Origin: Cristatella mucedo | Taxonomy: Eukaryota > Bryozoa > Phylactolaemata > Cristatellidae | DNA length: 64,000 nt | Direction of reading: 5' to 3' | NCBI GenBank assembly: GCA_009760855.2 | Contig: WPIO01000003.1 | Location: forward strand, 8,640,001 to 8,704,000 | Part shown: positions 55,725 through 63,226 of the stretch, piece by piece | Layout of the letters: the number at the start of each line of letters is the position of its first letter | Position numbering within the stretch: position 1 is the first letter of the stretch | The notes under the pieces: model-generated | The model's database searches: none | What the model was told of the DNA's origin: nothing | The model's input: only the letters and a program-made list of their open reading frames with translations | Program-made: the position numbers and the translations under genes

Positions 55725-55812
55725 ATGACGGCAAAAATGCTGTTTATTGTGCTTGCACTGGTGTACCTTGCAGCTCTACCACAACTCCTGGATGCTCAAG
55801 TTTACCAAAACG
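55725..55812 (+). CDS. Pentraxin-type gene exon 1 (signal peptide)
   Basis: ATG 55725 (context AAGAATGA) was chosen because the earlier ATG at 55712 reads ATGGCATGA and stops. It encodes MTAKMLFIVLALVYLAALPQ and the rest of the leader; donor ACG|GTAGGT, phase 1. Confidence 0.85.
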
Positions 55813-61800: not shown

Positions 61801-63226
61801 TAGCGTCCCTTTCTAAGCAAGCCTGAATTTTGGCTATGTTATGGAACTGAAAGTAGGCAAACTTGACTGTGGAGCTGATATGGTCGTCTGATGAAAGGTA
61901 ACTTTGGAAAAGGACACCTAGATTGCGTGCAGATTCAACAAGCAATACGTTGGTTGAGCCAACTTTAAGCCTTATATTTTTTAATTTCTGAATCCTACTT
62001 TGTTTGCCTATAACTAATAAAAAGGTTTTGTCGTCATTCAATTACAGAAAGTGAGCTTCCATTCATGTCCGGATGTCATCAATACATGCAGAAAGGATGT
62101 GTAGAGAATTTGACGTACTCGAGGGTTGGGAGGGATCAAAGCAAAGGTGCAACTGAGTGTCATCTGCACAAATGTGAAAGCCTAGATTGTATTTTACGAT
62201 CGCATCGGCAAGAGGGAGCGTATAAACTTCGAAAAAAGCGGACCGCGGACAGTACCATGAGGTACCTCGTATTTCGGTGGTTCCTCAAAAAGAAGACGCG
62301 ACCTCCAGCATAAGGTATATATAAATCTGGACATATACCTGCCTATATAACTTAATTGATATATATATATTTATATGCATATATATATATATATATATAT
62401 ATATATATATATAACGAATTGTGTTGGTGGTTTGGGTGTAATGCTTGGTCCTTTTCGCCTTAGGCCTACGGACTACGTACATCAAACTTTATTCTCTGGC
62501 TTCGTCTCTGTCGCTTCGTGACCTACTGTCACAGTCTGCCAATCGGCTAGTGAGGGTCTGCAGAGGCCAGACATAGATAGCCATTCCAGTAGTTAGTATA
62601 TATCTGGCAAGTTAGTTGAGCAACTTGGAGCGAGTTAAGACCGACTAGCTTTTAATGCAGACAAGCGGACAGTTCCAGATAGCCGTATGTGCTCTTTATT
62701 CGGGATAAATTCTTTGCCAAACTTCCATGGCTCTCTGGAACTCGTTGCAGTGGATCAAACGTGGCGATCAGGCTATGTTATCGCAGCGTAGAAGCCAAAT
62801 TAGTTAACCTTTTGAAAGCAGCTTCGGCAAGCTCTGGCCAAGAACCCACATCGTTGAAGAAATTAAAAAATACTAACGGCAGGCAGAAGATGATGAATTA
62901 AGAAAAATATAAATAGCACACGATAATATAGAAATGTAAAGCATATTTTAAGCCCCTGGTTAAGCGTCATAAAACGCCAGTCTCGATAGCAAAATTAAAA
63001 GAGTAATTGAATAAGAACCCAGACTTTGTGATCCTTACCCCTCGGGGGCAAAATTGTTCAGTGCTTTATCTACTGCATACGGCTCTCGGTTGATCGGTAT
63101 ATTGAAGAGATATATTACCGTAACACGGAGATGGTAGCAATCGCTAAATTTTCCTTGTAGGCAAAAATTGTTTCACCGAAGAGCAATCAATTTATACATG
63201 CGAGAAATACTGCGGAGTTGTTGAAG
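55725..63226 (+). CDS. Secreted EGF-like/pentraxin-domain protein, 5' part of gene (5 exons seen)
   Basis: Exons are 55725-55812, 57413-57541, 59614-59934, 60076-60420 and 63161-63226; all junctions are GT-AG and phase 1. They join without a stop into 316 residues plus one base, and the frame is still open, so the gene continues beyond the window. Order: signal peptide (1-24, cleavage after LLDA), a Cys-rich EGF-like module (about 40-72), a pentraxin/LamG-type jelly roll (about 75-290), then another Cys-bearing exon. Pentraxin hallmarks are FTVSFWIEVAN, WTYLTFTWSSHG, WQFYVNGKLW, GDFVLGQ and GSLSLFNIWDYAMTED. The usual signature Cys (HxCxTW) is replaced, and the calcium-site acidic residues after LGQ read VAAR, so calcium-dependent ligand binding is doubtful. 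N-glycosylation sequons occur at NGT and NAS. It probably acts outside the cell as a recognition or adhesion protein; the exact family member cannot be named. Confidence 0.88.
55849..55976. repeat. (AC)n microsatellite, about 63 units, in intron 1
   Basis: A pure AC run followed by (AT)5, starting 37 bases after the exon 1 donor. It produces the long His-Thr and Cys-Val chance frames. Confidence 0.98.
56225..56600 (-). mobile_element. LINE-A 3' end in intron 1 of the pentraxin-type gene
   Basis: (TAA)n, TGATAAAGCGCCCTTAGAGA, GGCGCTTTACATTTGCTGC and GGTTAGGGGTGACATGCACA up to GTTCCAGGCTTTGGGAGCAT. It is close in sequence to 28928-29763. Confidence 0.92.
56601..57412. other. Intron 1 remainder
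   Basis: The frames at 56760-57062 and 57064-57246 lack motifs and splice support. They are treated as intron. Confidence 0.5.
57413..57541 (+). CDS. Pentraxin-type gene exon 2 (EGF-like, Cys-rich)
   Basis: Acceptor CTTATACAG|AG, donor T|GTGAGT, 129 bases, phase 1-1. Cys spacing is C-x9-C-x8-C-x-C-x10-C, with GYECHCGPGYFW giving the EGF C-x-C and Gly-aromatic core. Only five Cys lie in the exon; a sixth would have to come from a neighbouring exon. Confidence 0.85.
58065..58135 (+). mobile_element. SINE-A 3' tail fragment
   Basis: GCCATGAAGGCTCTTCTGCC and GCTTATAAATCCGATAA match the tail of 8750-8975. Confidence 0.5.
58964..59160 (-). mobile_element. LINE-A 3' tail fragment
   Basis: A run of ten TAA units, GATAAAGCGGCCTCAGAGAA, CCTAGGCGTTTTACATTTGC and GGGTGACATGCACAGGGTCA. 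Confidence 0.88.
59225..59290 (-). mobile_element. LINE-A extreme 3' tail fragment
   Basis: (TAA)n, TTGATATAGCGCCCTCAGAG and CAGTCTCTTTCTTGGCATT only. Confidence 0.75.
59614..59934 (+). CDS. Pentraxin-type gene exon 3 (N-terminal half of pentraxin domain)
   Basis: A T-run then TTTGCCAG|CT acceptor, donor CACG|GTATGC, phase 1-1, 107 codons. It encodes LEFPAAPP, FPSLDAFTVSFWIEV, FSYKYD and WTYLTFTWSSH. Confidence 0.9.
60076..60420 (+). CDS. Pentraxin-type gene exon 4 (C-terminal half of pentraxin domain)
   Basis: Acceptor CGTGCAG|GC, donor GGCG|GTAAGT, phase 1-1, 115 codons. It encodes AQWQFYVNGKLW, the LGQ strand, LSLFNIWDYAMTEDSV and a Cys pair (DCTYTHC). Coding GC is clearly higher than in the introns. 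The frame runs open through the intron from exon 3, which hides the 141-base intron. Confidence 0.92.
60770..61412 (-). mobile_element. LINE-A variant copy in intron 4
   Basis: It has the CTTTCTAAGCACTTTACAGA variant tail seen at 30160-31052. Minus-strand frames give the usual C-terminal LINE-A motifs, heavily frameshifted. Confidence 0.85.
61413..62310 (-). mobile_element. LINE-A copy lacking its 3' tail, in intron 4
   Basis: Minus-strand frames give [56 protein letters not shown] and [20 protein letters not shown]. It directly adjoins the previous copy and begins at GGGAGCATACGAACTAAATG, so its 3' UTR was lost or replaced. Confidence 0.87.
62359..62413. repeat. (TA)n microsatellite
   Basis: TA units with one TTTATATGCA interruption. 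Confidence 0.95.
63161..63226 (+). CDS. Pentraxin-type gene exon 5 (short Cys-bearing exon)
   Basis: Acceptor CCTTGTAG|GC, donor GAAG|GTAAGA, 66 bases, phase 1-1. It encodes KNCFTEEQSIYTCEKYCG. It is too short for gene finders to see as an ORF; phase, splice sites and Cys content tie it to exon 4. Possibly the start of a further small Cys module. Confidence 0.7.

Follow-up and report, generated by a model that had tools for sequence, protein, structure and literature searches.

A stretch of 64,000 nucleotides from contig WPIO01000003.1 of the bryozoan Cristatella mucedo (hereafter the window) contains near its right end the beginning of a gene that very probably encodes a complete adhesion G-protein-coupled receptor (adhesion GPCR, class B2) in 19 exons, the exons inside the window representing its N-terminal third. 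The predicted order of domains is signal peptide, EGF-like half-module, pentraxin-like domain, small cysteine-rich (Cys) module, GAIN domain whose GPS is degenerate, seven transmembrane helices (7TM) and a short cytoplasmic tail. On our best reading, the product is probably an uncleaved class B2 receptor with a pentraxin-like (PTX) head, unable to cleave itself. A preliminary description of the window had read its five exons (55725..63226) as a modular secreted pentraxin-type protein that ran off the window as part of a larger mosaic. The gene does leave the window: in the 75.5 kb to its right, which we joined to the window sequence, 14 more exons were modelled (exons 6-19, 67617-81600). The resulting 19-exon frame (55725-81600, plus strand) has 2,862 open bases and yields 953 amino acids (aa) followed by a stop codon. 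Numbers are window positions continued rightwards, and a contig position is 8640000 plus the number given.

Identification of the receptor

Pfam searches of the 953-aa protein retrieved an almost full-length 7tm_2 domain (122.9 bits, E=1.7e-35, aa 652-882, profile positions 5-249 of 250), preceded by GAIN (42.1 bits, E=8.7e-11, cut-off 26.5, aa 374-561) and by Pentaxin (48.4 bits, E=1.2e-12, cut-off 25, aa 100-277; 52.7 bits for the domain alone). There was no match to CUB or SEA, and NCBIfam gave a single match at chance level. Two frames in the extension had been noticed by eye as leads, a GAIN-type frame near 70.4 kb and a TM3-TM4-type frame at 77.7 kb, the latter matching 7tm_2 with E=2.7e-11. 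Isolated open frames score lower (GAIN 13.5, TM2 13.5 and TM3 43.6 bits), and because the joined protein outscores single frames for GAIN as well as for 7tm_2, the joining of the exons is supported beyond the rules by which they were selected. The TM3 exon was also recovered independently as one of 55 exon-level matches in a 7tm_2 search of the whole 572 Mb genome.

The part of the protein that follows the pentraxin-like domain was compared with the PDB, and all of the chains listed (the best 60 of 71 matches) were adhesion or secretin-type receptors. The 7TM part scored highest with ADGRL3 (109 bits), E5 (102), D1 (102), L2 (99) and L4 (80), and lower with E1 (77), G2 (61), G4 (60.5), G6 (55.5) and F1 (55). 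As D1 scores alongside L3, E5 and L2, the comparison does not separate it from these, and an affinity with ADGRD, suggested by the pentraxin-like domain together with the tied 7TM score, is a lead only. Three features of an adhesion GPCR were found, namely a 7TM region of the secretin/adhesion type, a GAIN domain before it, and a large ectodomain of adhesion-type modules with a hydrophobic N-terminus. Since the exons downstream encode GAIN and seven transmembrane helices, the gene encodes neither the secreted pentraxin-type protein first proposed nor a continuing series of secreted Cys modules; the predicted helices argue against a soluble product.

Gene structure and exon phases

Exons were picked by their GT-AG borders, phase and receptor-like sequence, with splice scores from approximate textbook matrices, and are listed in Table 1.

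Table 1. Exons of the receptor gene model and intron 3, in window numbering
Feature	Position	Strand	Description
Exon 1	55725..55812	+	ATG and putative signal peptide MTAKMLFIVLALVYLAALPQLLDA/QVYQN (cleavage placed by eye); donor GTAGGT; ends phase 1
Exon 2	57413..57541	+	EGF-like half-module, five Cys; phase 1-1; acceptor 9.7, donor 6.9
Exon 3	59614..59934	+	Pentraxin/laminin-G-like fold, first half; phase 1-1
Intron 3	59935..60075	+	141 bases; stop-free in the frame of exons 3-4
Exon 4	60076..60420	+	Pentraxin-like fold, second half, with divergent calcium loop GQVAAR; phase 1-1
Exon 5	63161..63226	+	Cys module, first half (completed by exon 6); phase 1-1; acceptor 7.3, donor 10.7
Exon 6	67617-67723	+	Second part of the exon 5 Cys module; ends phase 0
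Exon 7	68733-68885	+	Ends phase 0
Exon 8	69572-69779	+	Ends phase 1
Exon 9	70123-70260	+	Ends phase 1
Exon 10	70442-70632	+	Ends phase 0
Exon 11 (GPS position)	72985-73158	+	Ends phase 0
Exon 12	75331-75440	+	Ends phase 2
Exon 13	77104-77203	+	Ends phase 0
Exon 14	77671-77836	+	Ends phase 1
Exon 15	79264-79330	+	Ends phase 2
Exon 16	79581-79641	+	Ends phase 0
Exon 17	79791-79876	+	Ends phase 2; taken because its sequence resembles the end of TM5
Exon 18	80409-80535	+	Ends phase 0
Exon 19	81376-81600	+	Last exon, with stop codon

All five exons of the preliminary description were confirmed; their borders are GT/AG and every one of them ends in phase 1. The protein begins MTAKMLFIVLALVYLAALPQLLDAQVYQN, its hydrophobic segment spanning aa 5-23, and we judged this N-terminus to be a signal peptide by hydropathy only, in agreement with the earlier assignment; an additional in-frame ATG lies upstream of exon 1, at 55710. 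Exon 2, described as EGF-like, is indeed a Cys-rich phase 1-1 exon, but it has only five Cys and its matches lie under the Pfam cut-offs (ADGRF3_N, E=2e-4, 22.2 bits against a cut-off of 31; hEGF, E=0.0023). The Cys module of exons 5 and 6 (RTC...DADWSAPETSQC) resembles a hormone receptor motif by eye only, and this identity was rejected as no Pfam HRM match was obtained at E<=10.

Exons 3 and 4, read together with intron 3 as a single frame of 295 aa, exceed the longest frame in all 200 dinucleotide shuffles of 54500-64000 (maximum 248). The unspliced reading was nevertheless discarded: the Pentaxin score rises from 38.4 bits when read through to 51.3 bits when spliced, and 59935..60075 is therefore an intron. 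The GC content of the coding sequence is 0.53, compared with 0.45 in the introns.

The proposal that the gene is built only from phase 1-1 exons applies to exons 1-5; beyond them the phases are mixed (exons 6-18 end 0,0,1,1,0,0,2,0,1,2,0,2,0). When 55000-94900 was searched for phase 1-1 exons that have three or more Cys and score 5 or higher at their splice sites on the same matrices, four candidates emerged against a shuffle mean of 0.65 (maximum 3 in 40 shuffles). Two of these were exons 2 and 5, and the other two share an acceptor at 78993 and lie outside the gene model. The phase-1 run coincides with the N-terminal modules, a pattern that would be consistent with exon shuffling onto a receptor body of mixed phase.

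This switch from phase 1 to mixed phases, together with the 4.4 kb of intron 5, falls where one would divide the gene if two adjoining genes were present, one for a secreted EGF-pentraxin protein (exons 1-5 or 1-6), the other for an adhesion GPCR starting downstream. We consider such a division quite improbable. The immediate stop after exon 5 that would mark the end of a first gene was not found, and the frame runs on to exon 19; exon 5 ends in phase 1 and exon 6 is entered in that phase, contributing two further Cys. In the downstream frames we noticed no further start codon followed by a signal peptide, for which no dedicated scan was made, and pentraxin-like domains are known in the receptors ADGRD1, D2, G4 and G6, in whose ectodomains they have been predicted (PMC10687090).

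A single 19-exon receptor gene is thus retained as the preferred model. Its intron after the TM4 Trp (donor TGGG|GT, phase 1) recurs at the identical place and phase in class-B-type frames on two other contigs (C4 and C222), and a similar intron occurs on a third (C199). The TM3/TM4 intron was accordingly rejected as a subfamily marker, given its recurrence among the three loci compared.

A pentraxin-like domain without the core disulfide and most calcium-ligand residues

The pentraxin fold reported over exons 3-4 was borne out. The 316 aa of joined exons 1-5 scored 52.9 bits for Laminin_G_3 (cut-off 27.6) and 51.3 bits for Pentaxin (cut-off 25) across these two exons, and the PDB chains nearest to the domain were NPTX2 (61.9 bits), NPTX1 (54.9) and PTX3 (44.6). 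These closest solved relatives, which are not themselves 7TM receptors, keep the core Cys pair, whereas Ser115 and Thr173 of the receptor align with the two core Cys of NPTX2. The calcium loop is likewise divergent, reading GQVAAR where NPTX1 and NPTX2 have GQEQDT and PTX3 has GQEK. The calcium ligands of CRP are Asp60, Asn61, Glu138, Gln139, Asp140, Glu147 and Gln150; their presumed counterparts through the NPTX2 alignment, in which CRP itself does not figure, are Pro138, Asn139, Val217, Ala218, Ala219, Ser231 and Gln234, with two of the seven kept. The domain therefore has the fold of a classical pentraxin at the sequence level, and has neither the core disulfide nor most of the calcium-site residues. 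The disulfide is present in CRP, SAP, NP1 and the pentraxin-like domain of G4 (PMC10687090). No relatives of the domain were found in a viral contig collection with six exact peptide patterns.

A second pentraxin-like gene lies on the minus strand of another contig (C442, near 5248600). In its frames, read by eye, the EQD-type loop is kept, the core Cys pair is lost and a sushi-like frame lies nearby; it is perhaps SVEP1-like. Because this gene also has no Cys pair, the loss of the disulfide may be less special than that of the loop.

SVEP1 has EGF and pentraxin modules in common with our gene, and a secreted SVEP1-like protein (EGF, pentraxin and sushi repeats) is a common annotation for this combination in invertebrates; SVEP1-like proteins of ticks and mites are mentioned in the literature (PMC12027997, PMC8722417, PMC9779611), and the sushi-like frame beside the second pentraxin-like gene points the same way. 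For the receptor gene itself this reading is extremely unlikely. At E<=1 neither sushi nor von Willebrand A was matched in the 953-aa protein, which has GAIN and 7tm_2 instead, and if the 19-exon model holds, the SVEP1 reading is refuted for this gene. Both it and the secreted pentraxin were dropped once the GAIN and 7TM exons appeared.

Apparent loss of the cleavage site and of most of the Stachel core

A typical GPS has four Cys and a His-Leu/Ile-Ser/Thr site (PMC13197933). The exon at the GPS position of the receptor reads AACFSSEVGNSSVDMQWRPVVIAIHNQTHGTIRCKYSGSGIFGVTTD, and two of the four Cys are left, Cys591 and Cys622. Pfam returned no GPS match at E<=1 for the 953-aa protein or at E<=10 for the region alone, compared with 65.3 bits for the matching region of ADGRL3 as a control. 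In a search for GPS across the whole genome, none of the matches listed (at least 18) fell on the contig of the receptor. HMMER nonetheless aligns the exon with the GPS of ADGRL3, including N-x-T-H and F-x-V, and places Tyr-Ser-Gly against the His-Leu-Thr cleavage site; in an ungapped reading, the site is Gly-Ser-Gly. In either alignment, the cleavage residues are gone from the predicted protein. The Stachel core, for which the motif TxFxxLM is given (PMC13197933), reads GIFGVTT when aligned without gaps, with Phe kept and Leu-Met lost; the motif is not known to be required in every member of the family. From this we infer that the receptor is uncleaved. Members of the family need not have a GPS with four Cys and HL(S/T), since the GAIN domains of B2 and B3 have been seen uncleaved, and cleavage-independent signalling has been reported for adhesion GPCRs (PMC13197933).

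An intact GPS might instead be encoded by some other exon, located after exon 10 and before the one for TM1. The exon at 72985-73158 was chosen by phase and appearance and has no Pfam match, which leaves some room for this reading, but we regard it as improbable. Over 70600-75400 in three frames, there are nine occurrences of H(L/I/V/M/F)(S/T/C) and eight of CxC, none of them in GPS order (CxC and then the cleavage triplet), and the chosen exon, besides its alignment with the GPS of ADGRL3, is in phase on both sides.

Weighing the receptor model

Several points weigh against the model of a single, uncleaved receptor. It was built from genomic DNA alone, and the finding that 18 of 18 introns are GT-AG with consistent phases adds no independent evidence, because the exons were selected for those features. 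On the approximate matrices, the acceptors of exons 4, 7 and 19 are weak (3.1, 2.2 and 4.3), as are the donors of exons 8, 9, 16 and 17 (2.5, 3.9, 3.9 and 3.1). Exon 17 is the least certain, 10 of the 16 candidates listed for it being compatible in phase. The cleavage site can be aligned in two ways that differ by two residues, and no Pfam family was matched by the Cys module of exons 5-6 at E<=10. Finally, there is no adhesion GPCR chain among the 18 PDB matches of the pentraxin-like domain (E<=10), an absence that is neutral, neither supporting nor excluding common descent with the domains of vertebrate receptors.

The loss of several conserved motifs might also indicate a recent pseudogene, intact in sequence and non-functional. 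This is very unlikely, given a frame that stays open over all 19 exons and a 7TM core that is well kept.

Comparison with known receptors

ADGRD1 (GPR133) and ADGRD2 (GPR144) have in common with the receptor a pentraxin-like domain in the ectodomain (PMC10687090) and a class B2 7TM region, and ADGRD1 is among its best 7TM matches. The bryozoan receptor differs in the EGF-like exon before the pentraxin-like domain, the Cys module after it and the degenerate GPS. EGF-like or Cys modules flanking this domain are not known in ADGRD1 or ADGRD2. ADGRG6 (GPR126) and ADGRG4 (GPR112) also combine a pentraxin-like domain, further domains, GAIN and 7TM. According to PMC10687090, the pentraxin-like domain of G4, like that of the receptor, has no calcium-coordinating carboxylates, but it retains the core disulfide. 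G6 carries CUB and SEA (PMC6954182), and in G4 SEA is accompanied by a stretch of some 2000 residues (PMC13197933); neither CUB nor SEA is matched in the receptor, and both G6 and G4 give lower 7TM scores than L3, E5, D1 and L2. The weak likeness of exon 2 to the N-terminal domain of ADGRF3 is below the cut-off, and the 7TM scores of ADGRF1 chains (50-55 bits) fall well short of those of L3, E5 and D1.

The best reading is that the receptor is a variant within a known receptor type. In the literature searched, which consisted of titles and abstracts with incomplete coverage, we found no description of an EGF-pentraxin-GAIN-7TM receptor; we make no claim that none has been published. Adhesion GPCRs with modules not seen in mammals have been described in amphioxus (PMC2246102), and the secretin-type receptors are considered to have arisen from adhesion GPCRs, with the D family as their most likely source (PMC13197933, PMC8584163).

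Other features of the window and the genome

Elsewhere in the genome, eleven frames of 545-745 aa on four contigs (C33, C244, C652 and C120) each cover nearly the full 7tm_2 profile without an intron, apparently an expansion of intronless class-B-type receptors. In the window, an open frame at 9127-9480 (plus strand) matches positions 5-79 of the 211-position profile of the tRNA-modification enzyme TYW3 (PF02676, E=3.1e-18) and probably represents an exon from a different, upstream gene. A 354-aa frame at 41701-42762 (plus strand), inside a repeated block (40534-43007), matches reverse transcriptase (PF00078, E=6.5e-14) and is probably a truncated LINE-type element; a MULE transposase domain at 5709-6284 (minus strand) remains below threshold (20.3 bits, cut-off 27.6). 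An interspersed repeat with a 30-base core occurs in eight copies with at most three mismatches (0.00 expected), at 29073, 32467, 38097, 42819, 44295, 44665, 56379 and 59118, two of them inside introns 1 and 2 of the receptor gene; a 24-base core of this repeat had no exact match in the viral or genome contig collections. A 180-base unit is present in two tandem copies with 90% matches at 20225-20587. Scans of the window with Rfam (gathering threshold) and ARAGORN gave no matches.

Proposed mode of action and significance

Adhesion GPCRs bind a partner in the matrix or on a cell surface with the head of the ectodomain and signal through G proteins. In the bryozoan receptor, the tip formed by the pentraxin-like domain and the Cys-rich modules would bind such a partner, probably without calcium. 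The GAIN fold would sit on the membrane and, because the His-Leu-Ser/Thr site is gone, self-cleavage would be impossible. Shedding of the ectodomain by the usual route is likewise unlikely with no cleavage site, which makes a non-dissociating mode the best guess. By analogy with the family, binding or force on the tip would be relayed to the 7TM core with the ectodomain still attached, and the core would signal via a G protein. Tentatively, and as a possibility that we would not yet favour, the gene may represent a natural Stachel-independent receptor, an adhesion GPCR without self-cleavage and without a canonical tethered agonist, in which ligand or force is read by a pentraxin-like head that lacks both calcium and the disulfide and is joined to an EGF-like module.

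The extent to which signalling by adhesion GPCRs depends on self-cleavage and a tethered agonist is debated (PMC13197933). With the cleavage site, half of the GPS Cys and most of the Stachel core lost, and with GAIN and 7TM still recognisable, the predicted receptor would offer a natural test case for dependence on cleavage and on the Stachel. It also illustrates that a pentraxin match in a fragment of an animal gene can mark a receptor rather than a soluble immune protein.

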